40,160 bases of DNA from a virus. A model generated the notes under the pieces. The model was not told the origin of the DNA and ran no database searches. It saw only the letters and a program-made list of their open reading frames with translations. Numbering within the stretch: the first letter of the stretch is position 1; each line of letters opens with the position of its first letter. Made by a program: the position numbers and the translations under genes. The DNA lies in the IMG/VR virus record IMGVR_UViG_3300037071_001475, positions 1 to 40,160 of that record. The stretch is one strand, 5' to 3'. This document shows positions 1 through 33,124 of this stretch, piece after piece.

Positions 1-178
1 GAAAAGGAGAGAGAAAGCCCTCCCGCGGCGCGTGCAACTCCTGAACTTTCCGACCGCCCCCCTTGCGCCGAACGATCCGCTCGAGCGCGTGCGCCAGCCT
101 GTGCTTCGCGCAACGCCCGTCCTTGACCGCGAGGTTGCGGCACCCCTCGGTCTGGCACCACCCTAGGTTGGGTCTCAC
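1..178 (-). CDS. Partial small Cys-rich protein, cut by the window edge
   Basis: The GTG start at 178 shares a GTGA overlap with the stop of the upstream methyltransferase. The frame stays open for 59 codons to the left edge, so the 3' end is missing. Residues 8-25 hold a C-x4-C-x10-C-x2-H pattern (WCQTEGC then CAKH), likely a zinc knuckle, followed by an Arg/Lys-rich stretch. Similar N-termini occur in phage HNH proteins encoded beside terminase, but no HNH motif is present in the visible part, so no function is assigned. If the two window ends were joined, the frame would continue to a TAG at 40048, giving a 96-aa protein ending 26 nt before the small terminase. That is inference only. Confidence 0.55.
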   Translation of the reverse strand, partial: MRPNLGWCQTEGCRNLAVKDGRCAKHRLAHALERIVRRKGGGRKVQELHAPREGFLSPF

Positions 179-753
179 AGTGGCCACAGATCGAGCGTCA
201 TCGGTGCCACGTCGGGGATGGATGCCAGCGGTGGACCCAGATTGAACGGTTCTGCCGGTAGGTAGCAGCGGAAGAACCCTCCGGTGGGGGTGTCGACGTT
301 GCGGGCCTTGTCCCGGTGGTTGGTGCTGGCGATCAGGTAGCGGGCGCCTGAGTCCCGGAAGTTATCCACAGCCTTGAGTGCGTCCTCGATGCTCAGGTGC
401 TGCAGAACATGGCGGCACATGATCGCGTCCACCATGGGTAGATGGTCCTCGACCACGTCACCGAGCATGAATGACCAGGTGGGGTGGCGTTCTTGGGCTA
501 CCTCGAGGGCTTCTGGCACGATGTCCACACCGATATAGCCGGGGAGCTCGGGCTGCCAGAGTGCCTCGTTGCACCCTGCATCCAGGACGGAGCGGATGTC
601 ATAGGCTCTGACCAGGGCTTTCAGGGCCGGACCGAGGGCTTGAGTGGCCTCGAGCGTGGAGTCCTTGCCGGCCTTGTTCTCACCCCACAGGTTGTCGCGG
701 TAGATCTCCCCGAAGACGTGCCGCCTTCCAGTGACCGTAGAACCTGTGACCAT
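175..753 (-). CDS. Class I SAM-dependent methyltransferase
   Basis: 192 aa. Rossmann-type motif I is VLDAGC at residues 56-61. It is followed by an acidic motif II (VDIVPEALE) and a motif IV/post-I stretch, CRHVLQHLS, usual for small-molecule or sugar methyltransferases. The usual Gly after the motif I Cys is replaced by Asn-Glu. The gene overlaps the GT2 gene by 74 nt and ends the glycan-type run TagD-GT2-methyltransferase, so a role in methylating a transferred sugar or polyol is plausible but inferred. A DnaA-box-like 9-mer, TTATCCACA, lies inside it at 362-370. The substrate is unknown. A nucleic-acid target seems less likely because no catalytic motif of DNA methyltransferases is visible. 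Confidence 0.8.
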   Translation of the reverse strand: MVTGSTVTGRRHVFGEIYRDNLWGENKAGKDSTLEATQALGPALKALVRAYDIRSVLDAGCNEALWQPELPGYIGVDIVPEALEVAQERHPTWSFMLGDVVEDHLPMVDAIMCRHVLQHLSIEDALKAVDNFRDSGARYLIASTNHRDKARNVDTPTGGFFRCYLPAEPFNLGPPLASIPDVAPMTLDLWPL

Positions 754-1378
754 ATCTGCCCACCAGTCGTTCGTATTCGTCCCTCAGCTGGCCTTCGTCC
801 ATGAGATGCAGGGCGTGGTGCTTGGCCACCTGGCGGATCGCCACCTCCGGGACCCTGCCTACCCAGTAGCCGGCCATGTCCACCTCGATCGCGTAGGCCG
901 TGTCGGCGTAGGCCAAGGTGAACGTCTCGTCCAAGGGACCCACGTTCTCCAGGATCTCCCTCGGCATGACCCACAACGGGCCGAAGAAAGCGCCTCTGCG
1001 GGCCTGCGTCTTGGCGGATTCGGGGATGTTGCCGTATTCCATGGGGGTAGCGAGGCCAGGACGGCGCTCGAGCGCCTTGAGCATGGGGGTGAGCCAGCCG
1101 TAGGGGACCTCGATATCGGCACTTCCGACCGCAAGATAGTCGCCTCGAGCCACCTGGAAGCCCCGATTGACGCCGCCGGCGAACCCGCGGTTAGGGTCCA
1201 GGCGGATGTAGATGTCGGCCATATCCTCGAACGGGTTCGGCAGGCTGCTGGCGTTGTCCACCACGATCAGTTCGTGGTTCTCGGGGGTGCCTTCGGAGAA
1301 GCTGCGGAGCGCACCCATGGCGAGCTCGACGTTGGCTGGATCCTTGGCGTAGATCGGGACGATCACCGAGGTCAGCAC
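680..1378 (-). CDS. GT2-family glycosyltransferase
   Basis: 232 aa, GTG start. The N-terminus (SVIVPIY, then LIVVDNASS, then the NRGFAGGVNRG segment) is the classic nucleotide-sugar binding half of inverting GT-A family 2 enzymes. The DxD-like metal site appears as SADIE, and an acceptor-side segment (GPLDETFTLAYADTAY) resembles the conserved ED-hD region. No membrane segment is seen, so it is probably a soluble cytoplasmic transferase. It overlaps the TagD-like gene by 7 nt upstream and the methyltransferase by 74 nt downstream. It likely transfers a sugar to a phage structural protein or a host surface glycan; donor and acceptor cannot be read from sequence. Confidence 0.85.
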   Translation of the reverse strand: MLTSVIVPIYAKDPANVELAMGALRSFSEGTPENHELIVVDNASSLPNPFEDMADIYIRLDPNRGFAGGVNRGFQVARGDYLAVGSADIEVPYGWLTPMLKALERRPGLATPMEYGNIPESAKTQARRGAFFGPLWVMPREILENVGPLDETFTLAYADTAYAIEVDMAGYWVGRVPEVAIRQVAKHHALHLMDEGQLRDEYERLVGRYGHRFYGHWKAARLRGDLPRQPVG

Positions 1379-1797
1379 AGACGCTCCTTGATGATCGACG
1401 TAGAGATACCAGGGGTGTAGCCCACGAAGGCGACTGTGATGTCGAGTTGCGTGAGCAGTTCCGCCGACATGCCGATCTGGGCGCAGTAGTCCTTGGAGAG
1501 CCAGTCGGAACCAACAATCAGGATGTCAGGGAGCAGTTCCTGGATCACGTCGCCGCCAGGGCCGTCGTTGAGGACGGTTTCGTAGCCGAGCTCGCCGATC
1601 AGCGCCCTGCGTTCGTCCTCGGTGAACATCGGCGCGGTGCCTTTGTAGTCCTCGACGAAGGCGTCAGAGTTCACACCGACGATCAACTCGTCGCACAGAC
1701 GTTGGGCTTTCAGCAGGAAACTGGCGTGGCCGGCGTGCGGTATGTCGAACGAGCCCAACGTCAGCCCGATCGTCGAAGATAGCGTGCTGTCCCTCAT
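1372..1797 (-). CDS. TagD-like glycerol-3-phosphate (or related) cytidylyltransferase
   Basis: 141 aa, close to the size of TagD/GCT. The two family signatures are present: HxGH as HAGH at residues 21-24, binding CTP phosphates, and the C-terminal ISTS at 131-134 in the setting YTPGISTSIIKERL (TagD has the very similar GISTTKIK). An RxxLI-type segment also fits. The family makes CDP-glycerol, CDP-ribitol or ADP/CDP-heptose-type donors. The closeness of the ISTS region favours the TagD group. The ATG at 1797 precedes the first beta strand (IGLTLGSFD), so a shorter start would remove essential residues. It is followed by GT2 and methyltransferase genes, and a TagF-like gene lies at 33088-34119. 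Confidence 0.8.
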   Translation of the reverse strand: MRDSTLSSTIGLTLGSFDIPHAGHASFLLKAQRLCDELIVGVNSDAFVEDYKGTAPMFTEDERRALIGELGYETVLNDGPGGDVIQELLPDILIVGSDWLSKDYCAQIGMSAELLTQLDITVAFVGYTPGISTSIIKERLC

Positions 1798-3961: not shown

Positions 3962-4407
3962 CACGACGCCTGCAATCGTTCGAGAGCGTCCGCGGCCTTC
4001 TCGGCGGGATCGTGCAGCGATGCCGCATACACCAGCGCGTAGTCGACCCCGCAGGCTTTGAAGAACGCCTCATCGACGCGGAACGCCGTCTGCCACATGT
4101 GATGCGCCGCGCAGAGCGGGATGCAGCCGTCGTAAGCATCGCCGAGCAGCCGGGAGCGCCAGCGTGTCGCGTGACGTGACCGGGTGACGACGTGGGCCGC
4201 TTGCATGTTGCCCGAGCATCGGGGCAGTTCCTTGCGCCAGGTCCGGCCGTCGTAAGTCGTCTGCTCGATCCACGCGATGTCCCGCGCTCGACACGGGCCG
4301 GATTCACGGATGAGTTTCTGGAACGCATCGTCGGCCTGTTTGAGGACGCTGTTGCCCTTCCGCTTCATCGGCTTGCGCTTGAGCGCCGTCTTCCTGGCTA
4401 AGACCAT
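3961..4407 (-). CDS. HNH/NinG-like nuclease
   Basis: 148 aa. The ATG at 4407 overlaps the preceding stop (TGATG); longer starts would run into the lysozyme-like gene. A basic N-terminus (KTALKRKPMKRKG) is followed by CRARD, then a core with C, MQAAHV (the first HNH His), a segment R-H-x-T-R-W, and GCIPLCAAHH (second Cys plus His pair). This Cys/His layout resembles phage NinG/Rap-type recombination nucleases and DUF968-like HNH proteins that cut branched DNA. A role in resolving replication or recombination intermediates is inferred from family resemblance and from its place downstream of the replication genes. Confidence 0.7.
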   Translation of the reverse strand: MVLARKTALKRKPMKRKGNSVLKQADDAFQKLIRESGPCRARDIAWIEQTTYDGRTWRKELPRCSGNMQAAHVVTRSRHATRWRSRLLGDAYDGCIPLCAAHHMWQTAFRVDEAFFKACGVDYALVYAASLHDPAEKAADALERLQAS

Positions 4408-4862
4408 CAGAAACCCCATGCGCCTAACCCGTAAGCGTTCGCGGCCCACACCGCCAGCAGGACGTTCGTGCGAGCGTTGAACACGTTGTCGACGAGCCGA
4501 GCCATCTGCACACGATCAGCGAAGGCCGCTCGCCAGGAGGCATAGGTGGAGCCGATGATCTGGAACACGCCGGATGAACCGGACGGGTTCGCTGCCCAGG
4601 GCCAGGTGTAGGGGCCGGATTCGCGTTCGGCTATCGCCACCATCTGCGCGTAGCCACCCGGCACGTCCCATCGGTCGGTGGCGCAGCGGATCAGCCACAG
4701 GACGCGGTGGTGGACCTGCTCGAACCCCATCGAAGGCTGGATGTTCGCCTGCCACGAGTTGCAGACGTATCCGAGTCCGCGTTCTTCGGCGTGTGCTGTC
4801 GACATCCCGGTTCCGATCGTGAGCGTCGTTGCAAGCAAGAGCGAAGCTGCGAGTTTGCGCAT
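4407..4862 (-). CDS. Secreted lysozyme/transglycosylase-like protein
   Basis: 151 aa from ATG at 4862. Residues 1-25 form a clear signal peptide: MRK, a hydrophobic core, and AHA as the likely cleavage site before EE. The mature part has the lysozyme-fold signature AERESGPYTWPWA followed by NPSGSSGVFQI, as in soluble lytic transglycosylases and resuscitation-factor-like proteins, where a Glu (E79 or E81) is the catalytic acid. It would cleave peptidoglycan outside the membrane. It lies in the early/replication region, about 11 kb from the M15 endolysin, so it may serve a purpose other than final lysis, for example local wall remodelling. Confidence 0.75.
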   Translation of the reverse strand: MRKLAASLLLATTLTIGTGMSTAHAEERGLGYVCNSWQANIQPSMGFEQVHHRVLWLIRCATDRWDVPGGYAQMVAIAERESGPYTWPWAANPSGSSGVFQIIGSTYASWRAAFADRVQMARLVDNVFNARTNVLLAVWAANAYGLGAWGF

Positions 4863-4890
4863 GAGGTACGTCCTTCCGTCGTGTCCGTCG

Positions 4891-4909
4891 CCCACCACCG
4901 TGAGGTGGG
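4891..4909 (-). other. Weak hairpin before the secreted lysozyme gene
   Basis: Six-bp stem CCCACC/GGTGGG with a 7-nt loop in the 64-nt gap between the genes at 4862 and 4927, extendable by one G-U pair. No T-run follows. It could slow transcription or affect the ribosome site of the downstream gene, but a stem this short is common in GC-rich DNA. Confidence 0.25.
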
Positions 4910-4926: not shown

Positions 4927-5160
4927 CTAGCGGCCTCGCCCCCTCGGCAGCAGGTCGGCTTCGAAGAACTCAACCGTCGTGTTCTCGGTGAGCCACGCTT
5001 CGAGTTCTTCCGGCGTCGGACCGATGGGAGGTTTGTCGTCGAAGAACTCTCCGGGATCTCCTCGGTCACCCAAGACAGCAACGAAGATGAGCGCGATCAA
5101 GATGCCCGCGAAGATGCATGCGAGGGTGTAGGTGCAGCCGAGCCAGAAGTCGTTGGTCAC
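4927..5160 (-). CDS. Single-pass membrane protein
   Basis: 77 aa from GTG at 5160, which shares GTGA with the stop of the replication gene. An ATG at 5187 would add nine residues. Residues 5-32 are strongly hydrophobic (YTLACIFAGILIALIFVAVL), giving one transmembrane helix. The C-terminal tail is acidic and Pro-containing (FFDDKPPIGPTPEELEAWL). Topology is probably N-out/C-in or a membrane-anchored cytosolic tail. Small membrane proteins next to phage replication genes are sometimes exclusion or membrane-tethering factors; no direct evidence here. Confidence 0.7.
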   Translation of the reverse strand: MTNDFWLGCTYTLACIFAGILIALIFVAVLGDRGDPGEFFDDKPPIGPTPEELEAWLTENTTVEFFEADLLPRGRGR

Positions 5161-5885
5161 GCCGTCACCGCCGATAAGCGACGACATTCGCTGAGCAGGT
5201 ACGGGTAGTGGTCGTTCGCTACTGGCTGCGCCTCGCGGATGTTGCGGAGCGCATCGGTGACGATCTCGGGGGTGAAGGTGTTTCCGAGCAGCATCAGGCG
5301 GGCCGGTGTCATGGATTCCTGCCAGCCTTCGTCGAGTCGGCTGATGAGGTACTGAGCCGTCGAATCCTCAGCGAGCAGCGACGCGGCGATCCTGTTGCCG
5401 TTCTTTGGTGCCGCGCTCAGCGCGGGATTCCCTGTTCCCTGTTCCACTTCCCTGTTCCCTGTTCCCTGTTCCGGCAGTGAGTCCTCCAGTTCACCGTTAT
5501 CCACAGTGATGGAACCCTCACTGAGCATGTCGTGAGTCCTCACTGAGCCGTCATGCACAGCGGGGTACTTGCTAGGGGTCGGCCGGTTCACTCGCTGATG
5601 GTCGGTCCAGGCGTTCACGCAGTAGAACGTCTTGCCGAAGACGGCGTACCGAGTGATTAGGCCCGAGTCCTGTAGCCCCCACATCATCGCATCGACCATG
5701 TATGGCTCTATCTCATCCCGCAGCGGGAAGAGGGCAGCGCGGATCAGGCGCGGTACATCACGGCCCCGGCCCTCGTCGTCGGCGTAGTTCCACAGACCGA
5801 TGAACAGCAGGCGGTCGATGTCGTCGGGGAGGTCGGCGATGTCCTGGGACGTCCAGAACTCGGGCTTGATGGTTCGAATCCTCAT
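5157..5885 (-). CDS. Replication-initiator/replisome-organizer-like protein
   Basis: 242 aa from ATG at 5885 (ATGA overlap). The N-terminus MRIRTIKPEFWTSQDIADL is the hallmark of a widespread phage family with an N-terminal winged helix and DnaD-like tail, annotated as replisome organizers or DNA-binding replication proteins. Residues 25-110 (LLFIGLWNYADDEGRGRD onwards) continue this domain. A low-complexity linker (EQGTGN repeated) and a C-terminal helical domain follow. The linker DNA consists of 7-bp repeats and lies beside a perfect DnaA box, so the gene may contain the origin it acts on, as lambda O does. The helicase gene lies upstream in the same operon. Confidence 0.75.
   Translation of the reverse strand: MRIRTIKPEFWTSQDIADLPDDIDRLLFIGLWNYADDEGRGRDVPRLIRAALFPLRDEIEPYMVDAMMWGLQDSGLITRYAVFGKTFYCVNAWTDHQRVNRPTPSKYPAVHDGSVRTHDMLSEGSITVDNGELEDSLPEQGTGNREVEQGTGNPALSAAPKNGNRIAASLLAEDSTAQYLISRLDEGWQESMTPARLMLLGNTFTPEIVTDALRNIREAQPVANDHYPYLLSECRRLSAVTA
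5428..5548. other. Candidate replication origin inside the initiator-like gene
   Basis: Five copies of TTCCCTG lie at 5428, 5435, 5448, 5455 and 5462, in two runs broken by TTCCAC, with a partial sixth at 5469. A perfect DnaA box TTATCCACA lies at 5497-5505. Two 11-bp direct repeats CCTCACTGAGC at 5516-5526 and 5538-5548 are spaced 22 bp apart, two helical turns. GTGAGTCCTC also occurs twice (5477 and 5532). Iterons inside an initiator gene are known from lambdoid phages; applying this here is inference. Confidence 0.45.
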
Positions 5886-6082: not shown

Positions 6083-6243
6083 CCGAGATCACCGTCTCTT
6101 TCCCAATCGAACGGCAGCCGAGCGGAACTCACACGCAGTTCGGCATCGAACGTCAGGCACGCGCAGATGCCGCAGCCGATCCAGGTCCCGGAGCGGATGT
6201 GGCTCGTCATCCGATGCCCGCAGGCGCAGACGAAGTAGGTCAC
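6079..6243 (-). CDS. 54-aa zinc-ribbon protein
   Basis: GTG at 6243, overlapping the methyltransferase stop as GTGA; its own stop overlaps the next GTG. The product begins MTYFVCACGHRM and has CGICAC at residues 24-29, so C6-x-C8 and C24-x2-C27 can form a four-Cys zinc site. The C-terminal part is charged. It is too short to be found by size cut-offs, but both junctions fit translational coupling. Probably a nucleic-acid or protein-binding ribbon. Function unknown. Confidence 0.65.
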   Translation of the reverse strand: MTYFVCACGHRMTSHIRSGTWIGCGICACLTFDAELRVSSARLPFDWERDGDLG

Positions 6244-7193
6244 ACGAACCCCTCTTGCTGCTCGCCCTGCGTACCTATGGACTCCAAACTCTTGACCGCT
6301 TGGCGGTAATAGCTAGGCTTCAACTCGATTCCGATTCCACGTCGGCCAGCGGTCACGGCCCCGTAGACCTCGGACCCGACACCCATGAACGGTGTTAGAA
6401 CCGTCTCGCCGGGGTTGGACCACAGCACCACCGCGCGGTCAATCACGTCCAGCTGAAGCGGATGGATGTGCTTCTCGTCCTCTTGGTCGCGGGCCGCGCG
6501 ATACGGCAGCACTCGGTCGACGCGCACGTCATCCCAGAACGCTGAAGCGTACTGACGCCAGATCCAGTGGGAGTAACGGTTCTCGGTTTGCTTCCCCGTC
6601 CACCCTCGGTAACGCAGGAGTTCGGGGGGAACCACTCGCTCGCCGGCATACTCCATGAGGCCAACCGGGTGCGTGATCGGGACTGGGTTGTCGCCCTTGG
6701 CGCGGAAAATCAGCAGGTAATCCGCCGACGCTACAGCGCACCGAGATGAATCCTCGACCAGGGTCCGATGCGCGAGGTCCTTCCGCATGGTCCGGTTGCG
6801 GACAGCTAGCGGTTCCTTCCAGACGTGATAACGCGCGACGTAGTTGAACCCGAGACGCTGGTGCAGGCGGATGATGTCACCGGGGAAGTCCGCGAGAGCA
6901 TCACGCCCCGAGTTGCCGGTCGGAACGTCCATGCAGTGGACCGCCGACATCCGCCCCGGCATCGTGAGTCGGGCGATCTCCTGCACGAAGAACTCGTAGT
7001 GCTCGAAGAACTCGCCATAGTCGCGCGTGTTCGATAGGTCGCGTTCGCTCGACGTGTACTGATATAGGCCAGCGAACGGTGGGGAGTAGATCGTGAGATG
7101 CACCGACCCATCCGGCAGGGTCGGCATGACCTCCATCGCATCACCGTTGTACACAGCGAAGCGGTCGGTGATGAGCTGATCTAGGACAGCCAT
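6240..7193 (-). CDS. Beta-class DNA methyltransferase (N4-cytosine or N6-adenine type)
   Basis: 317 aa from ATG at 7193, chosen for the strong GGAGG site upstream. It overlaps the helicase gene by 13 nt. Motif IV (catalytic) is SPPF at residues 37-40 and motif I (SAM binding) is FMGVGS at 269-274. Motif IV before motif I defines the beta class. SPPF rather than DPPY leaves N4-cytosine and N6-adenine both possible. The middle (about 120-230) is the likely target-recognition region. There is no restriction nuclease beside it, so self-protection against host restriction, or regulation, is more likely than a restriction-modification pair. Confidence 0.88.
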   Translation of the reverse strand: MAVLDQLITDRFAVYNGDAMEVMPTLPDGSVHLTIYSPPFAGLYQYTSSERDLSNTRDYGEFFEHYEFFVQEIARLTMPGRMSAVHCMDVPTGNSGRDALADFPGDIIRLHQRLGFNYVARYHVWKEPLAVRNRTMRKDLAHRTLVEDSSRCAVASADYLLIFRAKGDNPVPITHPVGLMEYAGERVVPPELLRYRGWTGKQTENRYSHWIWRQYASAFWDDVRVDRVLPYRAARDQEDEKHIHPLQLDVIDRAVVLWSNPGETVLTPFMGVGSEVYGAVTAGRRGIGIELKPSYYRQAVKSLESIGTQGEQQEGFV

Positions 7194-8572
7194 GCGGGAA
7201 CCTCCGTGGGGACATCGAAGTCCTGAGTCCTGCGGATGCCGAGTGCGTCGTTCATGTGCGCCACGAGCGCGTCGAACATCCGGTCTGCCTGCGTCGCTTT
7301 GCGTTGCAGGTTGTTCAGGGCTTGCTCCCCGCCCTTGGTAGTGATGATGTCGACCAGCACGGGGAACTCTTGCCCAAACCTCCACGAGCGTCGGACCGCC
7401 TGGTAATACTGCTCGTAGCTGTGGGAAGGGAAGAACGTCATCCGGTGGCAGTGCTGCCAGTTCAGCCCCCACGCACCGATGACGGGCTTGGTGATAAGCA
7501 CTCGGATCTCCCCGCGCCCGAACGCGGTCAGGGCTTCTTCCTTCGCGTCGATGTCGTCGCTGCCGCTGACCTGTACCGCATCGGGAATGACCTGCGCGAG
7601 CAAGTCCCCTTCGGCGTTCAGTTGGCACCAGGCGACGGCAGACTCCGCATCGGCCAACAACTCGCCCACCATCTCGCACCGCTCGGTGATCGTGCGCCGC
7701 GCTTCGTCCCGCTCCTCCCGCAGTCCAACGGCGGGGAGTTCGAATAGCCGACCTTCGGGAAGGGTGCGCGCCTCAACAACATGCTGCGCGTGCTCGAGCG
7801 GCGGCAGGATGAACCCATCGTCATCGAACCCGAGATCCGAGGGACGACGGATCGCTCGAGCCCATGACGCCACCCAGCGCCAGAACGCATCCTCCGCGTG
7901 ACCCTTGAACCGCCACTTCGCCCGGTCGTATCGAGCCGAGAAGTTCGAGCCGCGTTGCAGAATCGTGCGCGGGCTCGATGTGTTCTGGTCGTTCTTGAAG
8001 AACCGCGCCAGCATGTCCATGTGGCCGAGTTCCCCGAGAGCTTCGCTCGAGGTCCCAAGCTCGATGTAATCGTTCGGCGCTGCCGTCGCGGTGCACAGCA
8101 GGCGGTACGGCAGCTTCCGCATGAAGTCGGTTACGAGCGCCCTGCGTACACCGTCGAAGGACTTGATCGCGCTCGACTCATCACAGACCACCCCGCCGAA
8201 CTGGTCCCAGTCGAACAGGTGCAGCCGCTCATAGTTCGTGATGGTGATTGGACCAGCAACCGCACCAGTACGGGAGATACCGGCCTCGATACCGAACTTC
8301 TCGGCCTCGAACTCGGTCTGGTACGACACGGCGAGCGGGGTGAGCAATAGCACGGGCTTGCCGGTTTGGCGATGGACGTTCTCAGCCCAGACCAGTTGCA
8401 TCGGAGTCTTGCCCAAGCCGCAGTCAGCGAAGATGGCTGCGCGACCCTTGCGGATGGACCATTCGACCAGCGCCCGCTGGAACTCGAATAGAAACTCGGG
8501 CATCCACACCGGGTCGAACCCGGAGTCGCCACCCAACTGAGTCTTGCGCTCGAGGAACGTGGCGTAGCTCAC
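7181..8572 (-). CDS. SF2/SNF2-like DNA helicase-ATPase
   Basis: 463 aa from GTG at 8572 (GTGA overlap). Walker A is CGLGKT at residues 51-56. Walker B is VVCDESS with DESS at 131-134 in place of DEAD/DEAH. Motif III is TATAAPND. The C-terminal RecA half ends with QAVRRSWRFGQ, the motif VI form typical of SNF2/RapA-type ATPases. It acts in the cytoplasm on duplex or branched DNA. Because it lies between an annealing-type protein and the methyltransferase, replication, recombination or remodelling are all possible. No nuclease domain is attached. The length suits a minimal two-domain phage helicase. Confidence 0.88.
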   Translation of the reverse strand: MSYATFLERKTQLGGDSGFDPVWMPEFLFEFQRALVEWSIRKGRAAIFADCGLGKTPMQLVWAENVHRQTGKPVLLLTPLAVSYQTEFEAEKFGIEAGISRTGAVAGPITITNYERLHLFDWDQFGGVVCDESSAIKSFDGVRRALVTDFMRKLPYRLLCTATAAPNDYIELGTSSEALGELGHMDMLARFFKNDQNTSSPRTILQRGSNFSARYDRAKWRFKGHAEDAFWRWVASWARAIRRPSDLGFDDDGFILPPLEHAQHVVEARTLPEGRLFELPAVGLREERDEARRTITERCEMVGELLADAESAVAWCQLNAEGDLLAQVIPDAVQVSGSDDIDAKEEALTAFGRGEIRVLITKPVIGAWGLNWQHCHRMTFFPSHSYEQYYQAVRRSWRFGQEFPVLVDIITTKGGEQALNNLQRKATQADRMFDALVAHMNDALGIRRTQDFDVPTEVPAWLS

Positions 8573-9228
8573 CCCACCAGATCCTTCCGAACCTCGACCT
8601 CTTCGATGGGCGCGGTGTGGATCGTGACCTTCGCCAGCTTCTCGGCCTTCCCGCAGTCGCAGACGGCCCAGCCTTCTCGGGGAGCTTTCGACCATTCGTG
8701 GATGTGACTCGGAGCGGAGGAGGAGGCAGGAGCCCCCCGAGAGGTTGCGCCCTCCCCCTCCGCATCGCTCGCCTGGTCCACCACGGCAGGCGGAGCGTCC
8801 GAGAGTTCGCCCGAGCCCACTGCACCTTCCCCATGAACAGCAGGCTCGGGACGTTCGGCTACAGGAGCGGCAGCATGGCGGCTTTCTCCCGTAGCCGAGG
8901 CACTCTTGGCCATCTCTTCGCGGGACGGCCGTTTCCCCTTCGGCGCGTAGCCTGCGTTCGCAAGCGCTCGGCCGATCGCGCTCGTTTCGGCCACCTCGAG
9001 CGCCGAGGACTTCATGTTCGCCGGCAGGCTCGACATCGAATCGTGAGCGAGTCCCGTGGCCGTGGGTGGATCGTTGCGGAGCTCGTTGCCGAAGTAGATG
9101 CTCGCCAGGACGATGTAGTCCCCGTCCTCGTGGTGCAGCAGTTCGGTGATGACACGGCCGTAGGGATGATCCGTCCAGAACTGGCGCAGGCGGTCCTCAA
9201 CGGGTTCGTAATCGTCGAGGAAGCTCAT
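8569..9228 (-). CDS. Putative recombination/ssDNA-annealing-type protein with C-terminal zinc motif
   Basis: 219 aa from ATG at 9228 (ATGA overlap). The N-terminal region contains FWTDHPYGRV and VAETSAIGRALANAGYAPKGKRPSREEM, a conserved block seen in actinophage proteins encoded beside recombination functions; I associate it loosely with the ERF/Sak group but cannot prove this. Residues 110-185 are low-complexity Ala/Pro/Ser linker. The C-terminus HEWSKAPREGW followed by CDCGK looks like half of a zinc ribbon. Position just upstream of the helicase fits a DNA transaction role. Confidence 0.55.
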   Translation of the reverse strand: MSFLDDYEPVEDRLRQFWTDHPYGRVITELLHHEDGDYIVLASIYFGNELRNDPPTATGLAHDSMSSLPANMKSSALEVAETSAIGRALANAGYAPKGKRPSREEMAKSASATGESRHAAAPVAERPEPAVHGEGAVGSGELSDAPPAVVDQASDAEGEGATSRGAPASSSAPSHIHEWSKAPREGWAVCDCGKAEKLAKVTIHTAPIEEVEVRKDLVG

Positions 9229-9692
9229 CCGTCCAACCACGCTTCCGTATAGGCGTCGTCATCGAGCAGCCACGAACAGCGGCTGCAAGGCGTTCCGCCG
9301 TCCCGTGCGGACACGAGGCAGGCAGGGTGGGGTTTGTCTACCGGCATCGGATCGGGACGGCGAGGGACGATGTAGAGGCCGGTGCGCTTGGACTCGGCAA
9401 GATGCTGCGCGGCGAGCTTGCGCCTCTGCTTCGCGTCGGCCTCGGTCGAGTTGAAGCGGTAGGGATGCGCGGAGGGCGCCGGTTCTTCGGCGGCGTGTGG
9501 ACGCGCCTTCGCCTGCCCACCCTCCGCACGCTTCACGTCCGCGATCACGCGCTCGATGGCGGGCTTCGTCGGGAGGATGCCTTCGGCAACGATCCTGAGC
9601 GCGATGGTGTCGCATACGTCGTCCGAAAGATGACGGACGTCGATACCTAGTGCGGAACACAAGTTCAAGAGTGCTTCGTGCGCAGGCGTCAT
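9225..9692 (-). CDS. Hypothetical protein whose N-terminus matches the adjacent HNH gene
   Basis: 155 aa from ATG at 9692 (ATGA overlap with the HNH gene). The first ten residues, MTPAHEALLN, also begin the homing endonuclease just upstream. Residues 15-55 are helical (DDVCDTIALRIVAEG, KPAIERVIADVKRAEGG). A basic Lys/Arg/Gln segment is followed by a C-terminal CLVSARDG and CSRCSWLLDDD cluster, likely zinc-binding. No named family recognised. The N-terminal identity suggests that the HNH gene arose from, or invaded, a copy of this gene. Confidence 0.65.
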   Translation of the reverse strand: MTPAHEALLNLCSALGIDVRHLSDDVCDTIALRIVAEGILPTKPAIERVIADVKRAEGGQAKARPHAAEEPAPSAHPYRFNSTEADAKQRRKLAAQHLAESKRTGLYIVPRRPDPMPVDKPHPACLVSARDGGTPCSRCSWLLDDDAYTEAWLDG

Positions 9693-10168
9693 GGACAAAC
9701 CTCGCCGTAGTACTCAAGCTCCGCAGTGCGGCGCGCCGCGACCGCGAGCTCCTGCGTGGAGTACATGCCGATGTACTTCGTCGTACCGTTGACGCCAATC
9801 TGTACGTGCCAGGGATTCGTCTTGTTCACGTTCGGTCGAAACGCGACGCCGCGGATGCCTGACGTGTTCCTCTTGCTGAGCCTGTGGCGGTTCACCTGAT
9901 TCGTCGAAGGTGACACGACGCGCAGGTTGGCCCTCCGGTTATCAAGCTTGTTGCCGTTGATGTGATCGACGTGCCGTCCCGGATGCCGTCCGGCGATAAG
10001 CGTGTGAAGTCTCACCGAGGTCTCGGTTTTGGTGTGGCACGCCGCATAGCCGGTGCTGTCCAGATAGAAGGAGTGCCCCTCCACCAGCCCTGCATCCGCG
10101 GCGTCGATGACGGTAAAGCCGCCCTTGCCTAGCGGGAGGTTCAGCAGCGCCTCGTGTGCGGGGGTCAC
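9689..10168 (-). CDS. HNH homing endonuclease with AP2 DNA-binding domain
   Basis: 159 aa from GTG at 10168 (GTGA overlap). Residues 54-95 form an HNH_3 core (RHVDHINGNKLDNRRANLRV, with the D68-H69 metal pair). Residues 101-155 form an AP2 domain (NTSGIRGVAFRPN, then WHVQIGVNG, then YIGMYST, then AVAARRTAELEYYGE). HNH-AP2 fusions are classic mobile homing endonucleases. The first eleven residues (GTG-initiated MTPAHEALLNL) repeat the N-terminus of the next gene with different codons. It is therefore likely a selfish insertion in the operon whose translation start was borrowed from its target gene. Confidence 0.9.
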   Translation of the reverse strand: MTPAHEALLNLPLGKGGFTVIDAADAGLVEGHSFYLDSTGYAACHTKTETSVRLHTLIAGRHPGRHVDHINGNKLDNRRANLRVVSPSTNQVNRHRLSKRNTSGIRGVAFRPNVNKTNPWHVQIGVNGTTKYIGMYSTQELAVAARRTAELEYYGEVCP

Positions 10169-10353
10169 TTGGCCCTCACGAGCATCATGGCGATGGCCTG
10201 CGCCGTTTCTTCGTGAATCATCTTGGTTCTCGAAGTTCTGATGTTGCGGACGGTCGGGGCCGAGAAACCGATGCGACGGGCTATCTCGTGGTCGTTCGCT
10301 CCGTCCTCGTGGAGCTTCGCAAGCACGACCTGATACGGCGCGGCGTCGATCAC
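10165..10353 (-). CDS. Small HTH DNA-binding protein
   Basis: 62 aa from GTG at 10353, sharing GTGA with the preceding 34-aa gene. Residues 14-42 (LHEDGANDHEIARRIGFSA followed by PTVRNIRTSR) form a clear helix-turn-helix with a recognition helix PTVRNIRTS. The C-terminal helix ETAQAIAMMLVRAK may dimerise. It could regulate the early operon. The family cannot be fixed; it resembles Cro/HTH_23-like small phage regulators. Confidence 0.75.
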   Translation of the reverse strand: MIDAAPYQVVLAKLHEDGANDHEIARRIGFSAPTVRNIRTSRTKMIHEETAQAIAMMLVRAK

Positions 10354-10657: not shown

Positions 10658-10960
10658 CTACACCCCTTCCCATAGCGTCAGAGGGTGGCTGTGCAGCCGC
10701 GCTCGTTCGGACTTGCGGTAGCCGATGGCGCGGATGACCCCGGCCCGTGCGGCGTTGTGGAACAAGGAGCCGCAGGCGTTCGGGTGGTCCCACGGTTCGC
10801 CCGCGATGGCACGAACATCGTCGGAGGTGAACGGATCCCCGATGTCGGCAAGGAGGCGGATGGCTTGTTCCCAGATCCGCTTCCACTCGTCGGCTGCGAC
10901 CTCGGCCTGCTCCATGCCGTGCTGCTTCATGGCCTCGCCGAGGGTTAGCTGGTCGTTCAT
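10658..10960 (-). CDS. Winged-helix-like actinophage protein
   Basis: 100 aa from ATG at 10960 (ATGA overlap with the LPxTG gene). Residues 15-40 are helical (AADEWKRIWEQAIRLLADIG). The following block FTSDDVRAIAGEP, HPNACGSLFHNAARAG, IGYRKSERARLHSHPL is a pattern I recognise from many actinophage proteins of unknown role, with the helix spacing of a winged helix-turn-helix. It may bind DNA. No direct evidence of target. Confidence 0.7.
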   Translation of the reverse strand: MNDQLTLGEAMKQHGMEQAEVAADEWKRIWEQAIRLLADIGDPFTSDDVRAIAGEPWDHPNACGSLFHNAARAGVIRAIGYRKSERARLHSHPLTLWEGV

Positions 10961-11574
10961 GGACGCTCCCTGCTGCGAAGCACGGCCGTCGCTCCAAGGG
11001 TCGAGAGCAGCAGGGCCACGATCCCGAGCGGCACCACGCCCGCAGGCAGTCCCGTGTCGGGCAGATCGCAGGTCGTGCAGACCACGGGTGGGTTCGTCGG
11101 AGGCGGGGGTGTCCAGCTTGGCGTCCAGCAGGGGTAGTCCTCAGGAGCGCACGGCTTCGGAGTCGGGCTCGGGGTAGGTGTAGGTGATGGGGTCGGGGGT
11201 GGTGTGGAAGTGGGTGGAGGAGGCGTGTCGGTGGGCGGCGGCGGGGGCGACTGCGTGGGTGTGGTGGAAGGTGAAGGCGTAGGACTCGGAGTCGTCGATG
11301 GCGACGGAGACGGCGTGGTGGTGGGTGAGGGCGTACCGCTCGGACTTGTCGTTGGGCATGGTGACTCCGATCCGATCGTGCATCCGTTAGGAGATGGACT
11401 AGGGCTGGGGCTGGGGCTGGGGCTGGGGGACGGTGAGGGGCTGACCGTGATCGTTGGGCTGGGGCACGGCCAGTAGCTCCCCGGACAGTTCGCGTTGGCC
11501 GATGCCACGTTCACCGCCAGCGGGGTGAAGACCATGGCAGCGAACAGCACGATCCCGACCAGAACTCGCTTCAC
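10957..11574 (-). CDS. LPxTG-type cell-wall-anchored Pro/Ser/Thr-rich surface protein
   Basis: 205 aa, GTG start directly after the TAA of a 34-aa gene. Residues 1-28 are a signal peptide (MKRVLVGIVLFAAMVFTPLA, AxA cleavage). Residues 35-165 are Pro/Ser/Thr repeats including an (SP)n run and CP/PC pairs. The C-terminus has LPDTG at 171-175, a hydrophobic helix, and an RSRERP tail: a full sortase sorting signal. The host sortase would link it to peptidoglycan, with the repeat stalk reaching through the wall. It is probably made during lysogeny or infection to change the host surface. A virion role would not need a sorting signal. Confidence 0.88.
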   Translation of the reverse strand: MKRVLVGIVLFAAMVFTPLAVNVASANANCPGSYWPCPSPTITVSPSPSPSPSPSPSPSPSPNGCTIGSESPCPTTSPSGTPSPTTTPSPSPSTTPSPTPSPSTTPTQSPPPPPTDTPPPPTSTPPPTPSPTPTPSPTPKPCAPEDYPCWTPSWTPPPPTNPPVVCTTCDLPDTGLPAGVVPLGIVALLLSTLGATAVLRSRERP

Positions 11575-11679
11575 TTATGCCCCTCTCAGTTGACGAACGA
11601 CGACGATCCACACCGCGAGGTCCGCGATGAGCAGGACAACGATCCACGCAACCCGCGGCCAGTCGATGGGACGGGTCAT
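11575..11679 (-). CDS. 34-aa membrane peptide
   Basis: ATG at 11679 overlaps the preceding stop (ATGA); TAA ends one base before the GTG of the LPxTG gene. The product is MTRPIDWPRVAWIVVLLI, then ADLAVWIVVVRQLRGA: one transmembrane helix with a basic C-terminus. Coupling at both ends favours translation. It might help insertion or export of the neighbouring surface protein, but this is only positional. Confidence 0.6.
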   Translation of the reverse strand: MTRPIDWPRVAWIVVLLIADLAVWIVVVRQLRGA

Positions 11680-12215
11680 GCTCCCCACCCTGCTAGGCGA
11701 CGTAGATAGGCTTGCTCGGGAGACTTACGCCACGCTGCCAACCGAGCTCGCGCTCGCCGTATGTGCAGCAGCTTCGTCTTCCGCCTCTGCTCTTGTTCGT
11801 ACCGCCATTCGTCGTCTGCGCTGGCGAAGTAAGGAGTGTCAGCACCCTCCGGGAAGATTCCCGCCAGGGCCTCGAGCGGCGCTAGCAGGTCTGGCTCGGG
11901 CGACAACATGTCCAGCACCTGCCAGTCACGGGAAGTCCCGAGGGCGCTCCCCGTCAGTCGGAAAGCATCCGGCCGAATCGTTGCCCACTCCTCCTCGCGC
12001 TCTGCGTGGCGCTGCTCACGCCGCTCAACCTGATACACCACGCTCTCGCTGTACCTAGCCGGGTCGCTGATCGTGGGTGAGCTACGCAACAACTCCTCAA
12101 CCGGCTTCAACTGCTCGTGGCTGCGCTCGCTCATACACTGGCGACAGTTTCCGCTCTTGTTCCGGCCGACAAGGAGGATGTCATGACCTCGAAGGCACCG
12201 CTTCTTCTGCATCAT
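11676..12215 (-). CDS. Zinc-finger protein with N-terminal Cys cluster
   Basis: 179 aa; ATG at 12215 (ATGA overlap), with a second ATG three bases later. The N-terminus CLRGHDILLVGRNKSG followed by CRQC gives C-x2-GH...C-x2-C, the zinc ribbon usually found at the C-terminus of phage HNH proteins, here without an HNH core. The rest is charged helix (VERREQRHAEREEEW; RRKTKLLHIRRARARLAAW). It probably binds nucleic acid. It lies directly downstream of the HTH gene in the leftward operon. Confidence 0.65.
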   Translation of the reverse strand: MMQKKRCLRGHDILLVGRNKSGNCRQCMSERSHEQLKPVEELLRSSPTISDPARYSESVVYQVERREQRHAEREEEWATIRPDAFRLTGSALGTSRDWQVLDMLSPEPDLLAPLEALAGIFPEGADTPYFASADDEWRYEQEQRRKTKLLHIRRARARLAAWRKSPEQAYLRRLAGWGA

Positions 12216-12406
12216 GCCGCACCCTCCTCGTTGCCGTTCCTAGCCCCTGGGAGCGATCCAGCGTCCCGCAGAGCGTTCAGGTGGAAGTAGACCGCGGCAC
12301 GGCTGATCTTGAGCTCACGGGCCGTCTGAGAGACGTTCTTGCCCCGCAGCGCCAACCGCAGCACACGCCGTTGGGTCACTCCTGGACCTGCTTTGTTCCT
12401 TCCCAT
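12212..12406 (-). CDS. 64-aa helix-turn-helix regulator
   Basis: ATG at 12406. Residues 10-50 form a compact HTH (VLRLALRGKNVSQTARELK, then ISRAAVYFHLNALRDAG) like the LuxR/resolvase-type DNA-binding unit. It is the first gene of the leftward operon and lies 100 nt from a divergent rightward gene. A TTGACA-N17-AAGGAT promoter ends only about 8 nt before the start codon, so the transcript may be leaderless. A palindrome in the intergenic region is a possible operator. Together this looks like a small regulatory switch, with this protein as the likely regulator (inference). Confidence 0.75.
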   Translation of the reverse strand: MGRNKAGPGVTQRRVLRLALRGKNVSQTARELKISRAAVYFHLNALRDAGSLPGARNGNEEGAA

Positions 12407-12454: not shown

Positions 12455-12477
12455 GCGTAAAGCGGTTGACGTAGGGT
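12449..12477 (+). promoter_or_regulatory. Rightward promoter of the secreted-protein operon
   Basis: -35 TTGACA at 12449-12454, exactly 17 bp, then -10 TAGGGT at 12472-12477, a good match to actinobacterial sigma-70 promoters. The start codon at 12506 follows an AGGAAGG site. Confidence 0.65.
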
Positions 12478-12505
12478 GAAAACACCCGAGAGGAAGGACA
12501 ACGAG

Positions 12506-13213
12506 ATGAGACTCACCATCAAGGCGCTGCTCCTCGCAGTCGCCCTCGTTCTCGTCACCGGGCTCGCAGCCAAGGCCGATCCCGTCACTCAGTTCGAGTG
12601 GGACAGGACCGGAGCCGAGCTTCTGCCGTGTGCATCGGATGCGCTTTGGGTGCTGTCCCCAGGCGAGGGGATCGACAACGCCACCATCGGGATCAACGAC
12701 GACGACGGAGAGGCCGACGGTCATGCCTGGGGGATGTTGAAGAACTGGGATGACCTGACTTGGTACATCACCACCACCGAACCCATCGCCACGACCGACG
12801 AGGTGCTGGTGGCCTACCTCGGGACGGCCGAGGTTGCACCGACGTTGACGCTCACCGGGTGTGTCGGTGCTGAGACTCCACCGACCGGTGGTGGCGGAGG
12901 TGGCGGAAGCACCGAGCCGCCCGCACCCGCTCCTCCAACGCAGACGATCAGTTGGGACATCGGGTTCCAGATCGCCACCGGGCACCTGACGAACGTCGTG
13001 GCGAAGTACCGACTGACTTGCTCGAACGGTACAGACACCCTGATCGTGAAGGGACGGGTGAAGGGAAAGACGCCGCTCGTGCGCTCTCTGAATCCGACCC
13101 TCGCCGATGCAACGTCATGCCACCTGCGGGTAGTTGCGAAAGACGTGAGGCCGTGGGTGAACCTGCACCATGCCCAGCGACCGATCGTGACCACATGGGT
13201 CACGCAGAACTGA
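12506..13213 (+). CDS. Secreted two-domain protein with poly-Gly linker
   Basis: 235 aa from ATG at 12506, chosen for the AGGAAGGACA ribosome site; an earlier ATG at 12476 lies in the promoter. Residues 1-24 are a signal peptide (MRLTIKALLLAVALVLVTGL, AAKA then DP). An N-terminal domain of about 95 residues with two Cys is followed by a Gly/Pro linker (residues ~124-143, a run of seven Gly) and a C-terminal beta-rich domain with a Cys pair. No anchor follows, so it is likely released or wall-associated. It is one of only two plus-strand genes and has its own promoter, consistent with separate timing such as expression during lysogeny. Function unknown. Confidence 0.8.
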   Translation: MRLTIKALLLAVALVLVTGLAAKADPVTQFEWDRTGAELLPCASDALWVLSPGEGIDNATIGINDDDGEADGHAWGMLKNWDDLTWYITTTEPIATTDEVLVAYLGTAEVAPTLTLTGCVGAETPPTGGGGGGGSTEPPAPAPPTQTISWDIGFQIATGHLTNVVAKYRLTCSNGTDTLIVKGRVKGKTPLVRSLNPTLADATSCHLRVVAKDVRPWVNLHHAQRPIVTTWVTQN

Positions 13214-14061: not shown

Positions 14062-14863
<802 letters not shown>

Positions 14864-14877
<14 letters not shown>

Positions 14878-15205
14878 CGTCACCTCCGACCTGCGTGTCG
14901 TGTGCCCGGCGCAGGAGTTTGGCGAGCGCGTAGATCCCCAGCGGCCACGCCACCGAGGCGAGCGGCAGACGCCAGGTGATGGGGTCACCCTGGACGGCGC
15001 GGTCGAAGATGAACGCCCACAACCCCGCGCACAAGATGACATAGGACACCGTGATCGCCAGGACGTGCGCTGTCGAGGCGTAGGCCCCCGGCTTGAAGTG
15101 CCCGTGGACGTAGAACCACGCGATCGTGAGCGCGAACCCCATGTCGAACGCGCCCATCCCGAGGACGAACACGCGCCAGATGCGCAGGAAGTCATCCCCG
15201 GTCAT
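14864..15205 (-). CDS. Multi-pass membrane protein of the lysis cassette
   Basis: 113 aa from ATG at 15205 (ATGA overlap). Hydrophobic stretches at about 11-32 (VFVLGMGAFDMGFALTIAWF), 46-67 (VLAITVSYVILCAGLWAFIF) and 80-95 (ASVAWPLGIYALAKLL) give three transmembrane helices, followed by a hydrophilic tail (RRAHDTQVGGDDANR). Its position two genes downstream of the endolysin makes it a holin or antiholin candidate. Confidence 0.7.
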
Positions 15206-15525: not shown

Positions 15526-16160
15526 CAGTGGGCCGGGACCTTACCTTCTACAGCGATCCTTGCGTCGTTCCAGCCCCGCTTGACCGGGCCTTCCTTCGCG
15601 GGTTCCTTCTCTCCGCGCATGTACCGCTGGAAGCCCTCGACCCACTTGAGTTGGTTCTCCTGCTCCTTGTTGAGCGACACAAGCATCTCCTTCGCCTTGG
15701 CCGTCATGGCTGCCGCATCCGCTGGCGTGCCCATGAACTCGAAGTGCATCGCGTCCTTGCGCCCCGAGTAGTTGCCGCCCCATCGCCAGCCGTATTCGTT
15801 CCAGAGCGGTCCGACCCAGGCCGGCATCTCCCACGAGATCGCACCGAGCGGGTTCACCGGAGCGTTCAGGTCGACGGCGAGCCCCCAGGAGTGGTTGGAT
15901 GGAACGCTGGTTCCGCGGATCGCCCGACAGCCGTACCCCCAGCACCAGCCGGGATGCATCAGGTAGCCGCGTTCCTCCGTCTCCGTCAGCAGCGCAACGC
16001 AGAGGTCGATCACCTCTATCCGCAGCCCCGCGGGGAACGCGATACCACCGTTCTGCCCGCTGAACACGAACGACTCCATCATGTGCGAGGAGCAGTACGG
16101 CCAACCGGATCCCCATCCGCGTTGTGCTGCGGAGAGCGAGGAATCGAGGTTGATGCTCAT
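15525..16160 (-). CDS. M15-family peptidoglycan peptidase endolysin
   Basis: 211 aa from ATG at 16160 (ATGA overlap with the minor tail gene). The D,D-/L,D-peptidase metal site is complete: H90 in SNHSWGLAVDLN, D97, and H139 in DAMHFEF. This is the M15 (VanY/L-alanyl-D-glutamate peptidase) pattern with zinc bound by His, Asp and His. The C-terminal 45 residues (KEMLVSLNKEQENQLKWVEG onwards) are helical and may form a wall-binding or dimer region. There is no signal peptide, so release needs a holin. It cleaves stem-peptide bonds at the end of infection. It is encoded at the end of the tail operon, followed by membrane genes. Confidence 0.88.
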   Translation of the reverse strand: MSINLDSSLSAAQRGWGSGWPYCSSHMMESFVFSGQNGGIAFPAGLRIEVIDLCVALLTETEERGYLMHPGWCWGYGCRAIRGTSVPSNHSWGLAVDLNAPVNPLGAISWEMPAWVGPLWNEYGWRWGGNYSGRKDAMHFEFMGTPADAAAMTAKAKEMLVSLNKEQENQLKWVEGFQRYMRGEKEPAKEGPVKRGWNDARIAVEGKVPAH

Positions 16161-23523: not shown

Positions 23524-25416
23524 CTAAGGCTGGCGGACCAGCCATTCTTCGCCGGACCCGACCAGCCATTCGTCCCCAGAACCGACAGGCCATTCGTCCC
23601 AGCGGATGAGCTCTGCCCGCAGGGACTGGGTGAACATCGGCATCGTCTGCTCGATGTCCCCGACGGCCGTGGTGGTGATGAGCCCGAGCGCCGCCTGTGC
23701 GAAGGCGGGAGCCGTCTGGGTGATCGCGCCCGTGGGGTTGAGATAGATCGCCGCGGCCTGGGTGAACGCCGGGATCGACTGCGCGATGACGACGGTGATC
23801 TCGAGCGTCGCGTCCGCGGCCTGGGTGAATCCGGGAACGACCTGGTCGATGCGTCCACCGACGGTGTCGTGCGGGACGATCGAGCCGACGAGTAGCTGGG
23901 TGAACGCCGGCATGATGTGCGCGACGTCGGGTGCCGTCTGGAAGGCGTCTTCCTGGAAAGCGTCTTCCTGGAACGTCGTGACACGGCTTCCGATGATCCC
24001 GCGCACGAGCATGTCGACGGTGCCAGACTGCGTGAACGCCCCGAGGGTTTGGGAGGCGGAGGCGGGGACCGAGACCGTGGCGTCCGCGGACTGCGTGAAC
24101 GCGCCGAGTTCCTGCGCGATCTCCGCAAGATAGGCCGCGAGTGCCGAGGCCGTCTGGGTGAACCCGGGCATCGTCTGCGCGATAACCGCGGAGACGACGT
24201 TCAGCGGTTCGGATTGGAACGTGTCCGTCTGGAAAGCGTCGTTCTGGAACGCCGGGAGGACCGTGAGGACCCCGCCGCCGTCCCACGTTGCTACCGGGTC
24301 ATCCCAGACGACGTCGGTTGAGTCCCAGACGATGCCCGTAGCACCCCATGCTGCATTCTGAGAGATGGCGACGAACCCGTCCCAGTCGTTCTGAGTCGTG
24401 TCGATCGTCCAGATCATCGTGACGGTCGAGTCCCAGTAGCACAGATGATGCAGAAGTGGCCAGGACGTCTGGATGTAGTCGGCCATGTTCTGGAACCAGT
24501 TGAACTTCGTCGGCGCGAGTCCAGTAGCAGTCCACGTCGCGTGTGACGTGGTGTAGAACGAGTTCGCCTGACACCCTGTCTCCCAAATCGCAGCGAGGAA
24601 CATCTTGCCCGCGGCGGCTTGGGATGTCCGTTTCGCATCCGTCCAAGACTTGAACGTCTGGAAGATGTAGGACAGCGGCTTCATCACCGCGCCGTTGTTG
24701 TATCCATCACCAGCGGCACAGATCATGTTCGCGTTCAGCCACGTATGACCCGGCGGCCACCATGTATCCCAGTCGTCCTCGTAACCTCCCGAGGTTTCTC
24801 CCGAGATGAGGTTGATCGACAGGATGATGCCCTCCGGGACGGTGGTTCCGTTCCAGAACCGCACGCCGAGTCCCTGCCAGATCGTGACGATGTTCTGGAT
24901 CGCGGCCTGCCAGTCCGTGACCAACATCCCAGCCCCACCCGAGTCGTTGTTCGGCTCGTGGTGGAACGTCCAAGCGAACGTGCAACCGAAGCGTCCTTGA
25001 CCGATGTGAGAGTCCTGCCACGTCTTGATCGCGTTCCCGCGGGTGACGATGTTGTTGTAGATCGTCCCCGACGCTGCGGCCCCGACCTGCGCCCACGTCG
25101 CACCCGCGTACTTGGATGACATCACCGGCAAGCGTTGCATCTCGAAGTCCGCCGTGGCATGACCCGAGAGCCGCCCGAACACGTTATCCGCGTTGGGGGG
25201 CCACGAGTCCGTGATGTCGTCGTAATGGCGACGGTCCGCACCGAAGACGAACGTCTGTCCCGAGTCCGTGGTGACCTTGGCTTCTTCGCAGGCGATGATG
25301 TAGCCCGACCCGCAGGAACGGTTGACGACCACGCCGGCGGTGTTCGCGGCGGAGACCCCGAGAAGCGTCACGGGCAGGCCATAGCTAGACCACCACTTCG
25401 GTCCCGAACGCCTCAT
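23524..25416 (-). CDS. Glycoside-hydrolase-like tail protein with FTQ repeats
   Basis: 630 aa, ATG at 25416, overlapping the upstream spike gene by 32 nt. Residues about 50-370 resemble a TIM-barrel glycosidase. HHEPN at 152-156 (E154) fits the acid/base site of the GH26-like clan, and AAIWETGC (E279) fits the nucleophile strand. Trp-rich segments (DDWDTWWPPGHTW; MADYIQTSWPLLHH) fit sugar binding. From ~380 the protein consists of FQ-x-DAFQ units and eight or so Q-x-x-P-x-F-T-Q repeats. It ends in a DEWPVGSG-type repeat. Likely a tail-borne depolymerase or receptor-binding enzyme; the glycosidase fold is inferred. Confidence 0.65.
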   Translation of the reverse strand: MRRSGPKWWSSYGLPVTLLGVSAANTAGVVVNRSCGSGYIIACEEAKVTTDSGQTFVFGADRRHYDDITDSWPPNADNVFGRLSGHATADFEMQRLPVMSSKYAGATWAQVGAAASGTIYNNIVTRGNAIKTWQDSHIGQGRFGCTFAWTFHHEPNNDSGGAGMLVTDWQAAIQNIVTIWQGLGVRFWNGTTVPEGIILSINLISGETSGGYEDDWDTWWPPGHTWLNANMICAAGDGYNNGAVMKPLSYIFQTFKSWTDAKRTSQAAAGKMFLAAIWETGCQANSFYTTSHATWTATGLAPTKFNWFQNMADYIQTSWPLLHHLCYWDSTVTMIWTIDTTQNDWDGFVAISQNAAWGATGIVWDSTDVVWDDPVATWDGGGVLTVLPAFQNDAFQTDTFQSEPLNVVSAVIAQTMPGFTQTASALAAYLAEIAQELGAFTQSADATVSVPASASQTLGAFTQSGTVDMLVRGIIGSRVTTFQEDAFQEDAFQTAPDVAHIMPAFTQLLVGSIVPHDTVGGRIDQVVPGFTQAADATLEITVVIAQSIPAFTQAAAIYLNPTGAITQTAPAFAQAALGLITTTAVGDIEQTMPMFTQSLRAELIRWDEWPVGSGDEWLVGSGEEWLVRQP

Positions 25417-27235: not shown

Positions 27236-27246
27236 GCGATCCCTTC

Positions 27247-32864: not shown

Positions 32865-33124
32865 TAGTCCTCTTCCGTCTCCTCGATCACGGTGAACCCG
32901 GAGATGAGTCCGTCCTCATCGCGGGTGAAGAACGTCCCGGAGTCTTTCGCGATGACCGCCACTATCCGCCCGTTCTTGTCGCGGCGGACCTTCTTGCGCT
33001 CGACGGAGATGACGTACTTCCCGCGGCCGATCTCCTCTTCGCCCTCGACCTCTTCGAGCGTGTTCAGGTCGTCGAGTTCGGCGGCGGCTATGCGCTTACG
33101 GATATCGGCGAGTTCGTCTGCCAT
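32864..33124 (-). CDS. Small acidic/basic hypothetical protein
   Basis: 86 aa, ATG at 33124, overlapping the GT-B gene by 37 nt. Residues 1-33 are a charged helix (ADIRKRIAAAELDDLNTLEE). Residues 36-75 alternate strands (GKYVISVERKKVRRDKNGRI, VAVIAKDSGTFFTRDEDGL) and the protein ends acidic (EETEED). No known motif. It is coupled at both ends, between the glycan-transfer genes and the fibre genes. Confidence 0.65.
   Translation of the reverse strand: MADELADIRKRIAAAELDDLNTLEEVEGEEEIGRGKYVISVERKKVRRDKNGRIVAVIAKDSGTFFTRDEDGLISGFTVIEETEED

Follow-up and report, generated by a model that had tools for sequence, protein, structure and literature searches.

Can a phage build a protein of its own into the cell wall of its host, using the host's sortase? 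The question is raised by a Pro/Ser/Thr-rich open reading frame in an IMG/VR virus record of 40,160 bases, which was analysed in its entirety and is called the window below. A first-pass annotation had described the product as a phage-encoded surface protein with an LPDTG sorting signal, attached to the wall of the host and not to the virion. The phage origin is borne out by genes for terminase, portal, capsid, tape measure and endolysin in the same record.

The stalk gene in its probable operon

The open reading frame was found exactly at 10957–11574, as annotated, and could be assigned to the minus strand, for which no statement had been made before (Table 1). A Shine-Dalgarno-like GAGAGGGG directly precedes its GTG start codon. 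The neighbouring genes abut or overlap the stalk gene, a packing typical of a real operon, and all belong to one minus-strand run that also includes HTH, HNH, helicase and methylase genes. In the window as well as in the record of a second phage described below, the stalk gene is placed apart from the structural genes. No promoter-like site was found for the gene, which we count against the view that the infected host makes a cell-surface stalk from it.

Table 1. Positions of the stalk gene, its neighbours and its encoded features in the window.
Feature	Position	Strand	Basis
LPDTG surface stalk gene, GTG start, 205 aa	10957..11574	-	ORF; homologue L119:9557-10246
34-aa ORF, one membrane helix, immediately upstream; TAA abuts stalk-gene GTG	11575..11679	-	
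100-aa gene, next downstream; ATG overlaps TGA of stalk gene	10658..10960	-	
179-aa gene upstream, weak endonuclease VII match; stop overlaps ATG of 34-aa ORF	11676..12215	-	phrog_1035 E 0.011
Helix-turn-helix regulator, 64 aa, heads minus-strand run containing stalk gene	12212..12406	-	HTH_5 E 6e-8
Signal peptide, ~aa 1-28; cleavage after ...VASA or ...VASANA	11491..11574	-	by eye; AlphaFold2 helix 2-28
Pro/Ser/Thr-rich stalk, no predicted fold	11065..11490	-	P/S/T 76% of aa 29-174; pLDDT mostly <60
Cys loop 1, CPGSYWPC	11464..11487	-	
Array of 4.5 hexanucleotide copies encoding part of (SP)n, 100% match	11402..11428	-	
Cys loop 2, CTIGSESPC	11356..11382	-	
Cys loop 3, CAPEDYPC, opens most conserved block CAPED[YF]PCWTPSWTPPPP	11128..11151	-	
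LPDTG pentapeptide, aa 171-175 (homologue: LAVTG)	11050..11064	-	
C-terminal hydrophobic helix, aa 180-201, then basic tail RSRERP	10972..11037	-	

Architecture of the predicted protein

The signal peptide, the (SP)n stalk and the LPDTG motif followed by a hydrophobic helix and a basic tail, all of which had been claimed for the product, are present in the 205-aa ORF. In addition, the protein contains eight cysteines, arranged as three C-x6/7-C loops and one CTTC beside the anchor, and these loops and the CTTC had been overlooked. Because the perfect 6-base repeat encodes part of (SP)n, the length of this stretch could vary in frame. A lipobox was not seen by eye in the signal peptide, and Pfam, PHROG and PADLOC searches returned no match for the protein. 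AlphaFold2, run on a two-sequence alignment, predicted only the helices 2–28 and 180–201 (mean pLDDT 53.6) and no globular adhesin domain; a model built on two sequences says little more than that the protein has no recognised fold.

The sorting signal was compared with chance expectation by a strict scan, which required LPxTG close to the C terminus and, after it, 18–45 residues that include a hydrophobic run and end in 8 residues of which two or more are basic. In the window the stalk ORF was the single match, and no match was obtained in 300 order-1 and 200 order-2 randomised Markov copies of the window or in 85 viral loci (900,513 bases). The scan gave one more match in natural sequence, in the second phage record (L119), where an overlapping frame just upstream of the homologue fits the pattern; thus the scan alone is no proof. 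With profile models, the stalk protein scored 12.0 bits (E 0.26) against NCBIfam TIGR01167, short of the cut-off of 15.9, and did not match Pfam PF00746; none of the LPXTG models matches the homologue. We count the scores below cut-off against the cell-surface stalk.

A homologue with an altered sorting motif

With the C-terminal 68 aa as query, one homologue was found, encoded on contig IMGVR_UViG_3300037071_005032 (L119), a 46 kb phage record. The corresponding ORF (9557–10246) has a TTG start that overlaps the TGA of a 33-aa membrane ORF, and its product consists of a signal peptide, the loops DECEEYGYC/DECEEYGDC, a Pro/Ser/Thr stalk, KPCAPEDFPCWTPSWTPPPP, LAVTGLPTAAIPLAIVALMLALLGASAWMRS and a 23-residue tail, in this order. 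BLASTP aligned the two proteins with 32/60 identical residues (E 7e-10 for the pair), and the stalks differ in length and composition. In the block PKPCAPED[YF]PCWTPSWTPPPP, 20 of the 21 residues are identical; at the codon level, 13 of 21 are identical, seven differ synonymously and one is a replacement. As seven of the eight differing codons are synonymous, the frame is under selection. In the anchor block, 9 of 28 codons are identical, 8 differ synonymously and 11 are replacements. Thus, the Cys-loop block is tightly held and the anchor block loosely, as expected for a membrane segment. Since a single homologue was found, conservation is based on two sequences.

This pattern of divergence bears on the most basic objection, namely that 10957–11574 might not be a gene at all, or might be a repeat read out of frame or in a decayed form. 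The low complexity of the stretch and the higher GC3 of an overlapping frame (11141–11383) would fit that objection, which is contradicted by the synonymous divergence from the L119 homologue and has against it the signal peptide, the anchor, the ribosome-binding site and the coupling, all of them present; we regard it as extremely improbable. Judging from the ribosome-binding site, the coupled neighbours and a homologue with mostly synonymous differences, 10957–11574 is a real gene.

In the alignment, LPDTG stands opposite LAVTG, with L, T and G retained. LAxTG is described in PMC5148588 as the motif of the class E sortases of soil and freshwater actinobacteria, and is accepted among the sortase signals in a 2026 actinomycete study (PMC13251363). 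LAVTG fits this motif, so that the sorting function looks retained and the motif altered. A check of the sorting signal in homologues had been proposed, and its outcome was divided: the homologue does not keep LPxTG as such but has a sorting signal of a different class. The proline of LPxTG is missing from the homologue, whose tail is also longer than usual; both points count against the cell-surface stalk. The classification as a host-sortase substrate is supported, in that the homologue keeps signal peptide, stalk and anchor, with the class E motif LAVTG in place of LPDTG.

The same data can be read in another way, with the C terminus as a plain membrane anchor in which LPDTG and LAVTG are incidental, and which might act together with the upstream 34-aa membrane ORF. 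The lack of strict LPxTG conservation, the model scores under cut-off, the long tail in L119 and the small single-helix ORF immediately upstream in both phages (34 aa; 33 aa in L119) all agree with such an anchor. However, the motif is correctly positioned relative to the helix and the basic tail, L, T and G are kept, and the change yields exactly the other actinobacterial motif, LAxTG. We consider a plain membrane anchor rather improbable. The alignment of the two small membrane ORFs is unconvincing (28%), and they are taken to share their position only.

Search for further family members

Searches with the full-length stalk protein gave 117 stretches in viral contigs, none of which was confirmed, and none in phages, because low complexity hides homologues. 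The C-terminal fragment gave 104 stretches in viral contigs, one of them confirmed (L119), and none in phages; the L119 homologue as query likewise found none in phages. Of 35 viral records searched, the L119 record was the one match. Altogether, the searches of cultured phages, of viral contigs and of 396 genomes from a single phylum yielded no homologue beyond L119. In these genomes, 38 of 396 matched the full-length protein at E <= 0.001, and the 20 loci listed were rejected as homologues: by their open frames they are matches in Pro/Ser/Thr composition, two of which (L108 and L113) have LPxTG tails of their own. With the C-terminal alignment (A4), 17 of the 396 genomes gave matches at E <= 0.01, the best being 7.2e-4. 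Of the three frames listed for 10 of these loci, two have sorting-signal-like tails (L121, L122); these matches were set aside as well, as sharing the anchor type.

The Cys-loop pattern was absent from the 396 genomes when up to two mismatches were allowed. This result touches on the idea that the conserved loop itself binds a ligand or acts as a decoy close to the wall, the partner being for example a tail protein of a phage or a component of the envelope, with the stalk as a spacer. In favour of this idea, conservation is highest in the loop block (20/21 residues) and the stalk varies in length and make-up, whereas the missing pattern in the phylum and the lack of a known ligand speak against it, and overall it appears unlikely.

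Other genes of the window were also used as guides to related loci. The window encodes a helicase and a DNA methylase (6240–8695, minus strand), and the pair recurs in 80 of the 80 helicase loci examined (tblastn). The helicase was discarded as a lineage marker, as few of these loci (L001–L080) share anything beyond helicase and methylase; the pair resembles a widespread cassette shared by otherwise unrelated phages. An LPxTG-type tail was found in 0/80 helicase loci, and the same scan found no LPxTG/LAxTG-type ORF in six cultured actinobacteriophages with a related portal or capsid (Renna12 whole, the other five from base 16000 to the end). A portal relative with 95–96% identity (L081) is on a contig of 5.5 kb that ends short of the stalk-gene region and is thus uninformative on the presence of the gene. 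The window portal had two matches in the 396 genomes, at 26–27%. The endolysin, the terminase and the secreted 12476–13213 protein as queries gave no relatives, and the tail ORF 25385–27511 had no match in phages.

Relation of the two phages and neighbouring genes

The capsid, portal and terminase genes of the window have no match in the L119 record. A 440-aa stretch of the tail-region ORF 25385–27511 is 79.5% identical in L119, which suggests related receptors and hosts of the two phages. Several small genes gave weaker matches, including the secreted 4407–4898 product and the membrane protein 4927–5187; in L119, the gene for the homologue of this membrane protein directly follows the LAVTG gene. 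The L119 record also contains two integrase-type genes near the LAVTG gene. The test that detected these two found no integrase in the window record, a further point against the cell-surface stalk.

Several other features of the two records were observed. The minus-strand ORF 14062–15195 is 95% identical over 252 aa to 41872–42627 of L119, with capsid genes unmatched; on this similarity, the match is probably a recent exchange of a lysis-region segment, and in this long frame the coding frame may be another. In L119:9330–9560 (+), in the frame of the 33-aa ORF, ...GLPDTGRSE-VGWLITAAVVFGFIAWAIVKTGSRRPPTRGEFH forms a second LPDTG-helix-basic tail, without a signal peptide, that overlaps the end of the 9197–9457 gene in a different frame and may be due to chance or be the remnant of a second anchor. 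The minus-strand product of 4407–4898 is a secreted protein of 163 aa that weakly matches a transglycosylase family (phrog_3310, E 1.4e-4) and has a homologue at 45002–45496 of L119. Between the lysis and replication regions, on the strand opposite to the stalk gene (+), 12476–13213 encodes a secreted 245-aa protein with no family match in Pfam or PHROG. Methyltransferase, family 2 glycosyltransferase and cytidylyltransferase genes are clustered at 175–1797 (minus strand) and possibly serve sugar modification of the virion or the cell surface, and 33088–34119 has a weak CDP-glycerol glycerophosphotransferase match.

Host and sortase

The cultured relatives nearest by portal infect Arthrobacter (~37%), and the nearest terminase found in a genome is that of the MAG 'Actinobacteria bacterium UBA5176' (51–52%). 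The host is probably an actinobacterium, as this weak phylum hint suggests. UBA5176 has three PF04203 matches, one of which is a class F sortase (182.6 against a cut-off of 166 bits); a second is below the class F cut-off, at 130.8 bits. A sortase (PF04203) was found in neither the window nor the L119 record, both of which are possibly incomplete. On this result, a host enzyme must act.

A proposed wall-anchored stalk and its possible functions

The proposed course of events has four steps. First, the signal peptide would export the stalk protein, as its sequence strongly indicates. Second, a host sortase would cut LPDTG between T and G and link the protein to the wall; this linkage is strongly indicated and very probable, and the related phage has LAVTG, as do class E substrates. 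Third, the mature protein of about 146 residues would be a disordered Pro/Ser/Thr rod, extended in shape and bearing three small Cys loops, of which the conserved one is close to the wall. Fourth, in the early phase of infection or in a lysogen, the wall-borne stalk would keep further phages from their receptor or, alternatively, would offer the Cys loop for binding to some partner at the surface. This last step, in either form, is tentative, and we hold it somewhat less probable than its opposite. The four steps together, that is, a cell-surface stalk made by the infected host, we regard as evenly balanced between right and wrong. Most probably, the stalk is made early in infection and anchored to the host wall; the signal peptide, the anchor and the place among replication-type genes point to the wall rather than the virion, and the replication-gene neighbourhood speaks for synthesis during infection over virion assembly.

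Of the two roles that had been suggested, blocking of rival phages by the putative stalk is plausible and a changed host adhesion possible. Staphylococcal protein A, a wall-anchored protein, can occlude phage receptors and hinder adsorption when abundant, according to the relevant part of PMC6532042; it differs in being bacterial, in having folded domains and in exerting the effect on overproduction. The stalk could instead benefit the host or lysogen by changing adhesion, aggregation or biofilm formation (lysogenic conversion), rather than by excluding phages. According to PMC10232760, a PhiSPbeta-like prophage encodes the wall-anchored protein SasX, which promotes colonisation and aggregation between cells, and the relative L119 has its two integrase-type genes; against such a benefit stand the lack of a predicted globular adhesin domain, of any Pfam, PHROG or PADLOC match and of an integrase in the window record, and we consider it fairly unlikely.

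Comparison with known systems

The kind of protein is already known in principle, from SasX and from the Ltp-type exclusion lipoproteins. SasX, from Staphylococcus aureus ST239, is likewise phage-borne and wall-anchored by a host sortase, as PMC10232760 describes it, and the stalk gene also lies in a phage genome in whose record a sortase was not found. SasX comes from a Firmicute prophage, and its role in colonisation and aggregation has been shown in the work summarised there; the likeness drawn here is one of description. Set against SasX, the Cys-loop stalk and the LPDTG/LAVTG switch are features of the window/L119 pair.

The Ltp exclusion lipoproteins (phage TP-J34, PMC3952083) and gp41 of the Cutibacterium phage Aquarius (PMC11480721) are likewise phage-encoded and exported, and as portrayed in these sources they share a disordered stretch after the signal peptide and display by the infected cell. 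Ltp is described as a lipoprotein with two HTH repeats (PMC3952083), whereas the stalk protein has a C-terminal anchor and nothing folded predicted; neither a lipobox nor folded HTH repeats were found in it. For gp41, PMC11480721 reports a membrane segment at the N terminus and a folded element at the C terminus; a sorting signal is reported neither there nor in the description of Ltp. The long chaplins ChpA-C, which are class E substrates, have a signal peptide, LAxTG, helix and basic tail as in L119; the same descriptions (PMC5148588, PMC13251363) give them hydrophobic chaplin domains, in contrast to the Pro/Ser/Thr-rich stalks of the phage proteins.

Searches of open-access papers did not turn up any sortase-anchored protein described from a phage of actinobacteria, which is weak evidence of absence. 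Two features look new: the family of loop-bearing stalks, and the LPDTG/LAVTG switch that separates the two related phages. That the two represent a disulfide-loop, wall-anchored stalk family of actinobacterial phages, expressed from the replication region and fitted to whichever sortase class the host has, with LPxTG in one phage and LAxTG in the relative that has tail-region sequence in common with it, is doubtful at present.

In Gram-positive hosts, phage exclusion proteins are mostly lipoproteins or membrane proteins, and the class E and F sortases of actinobacteria and their substrates are little studied. A sortase-tuned phage gene would add a way to alter the surface of the infected cell, and it would lie outside the well-studied staphylococcal prophage case. 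The proposal predicts that exchanging LPDTG and LAVTG exchanges the required sortase class. If it is true, such phages use the sortase of their host to rebuild the host surface during infection.
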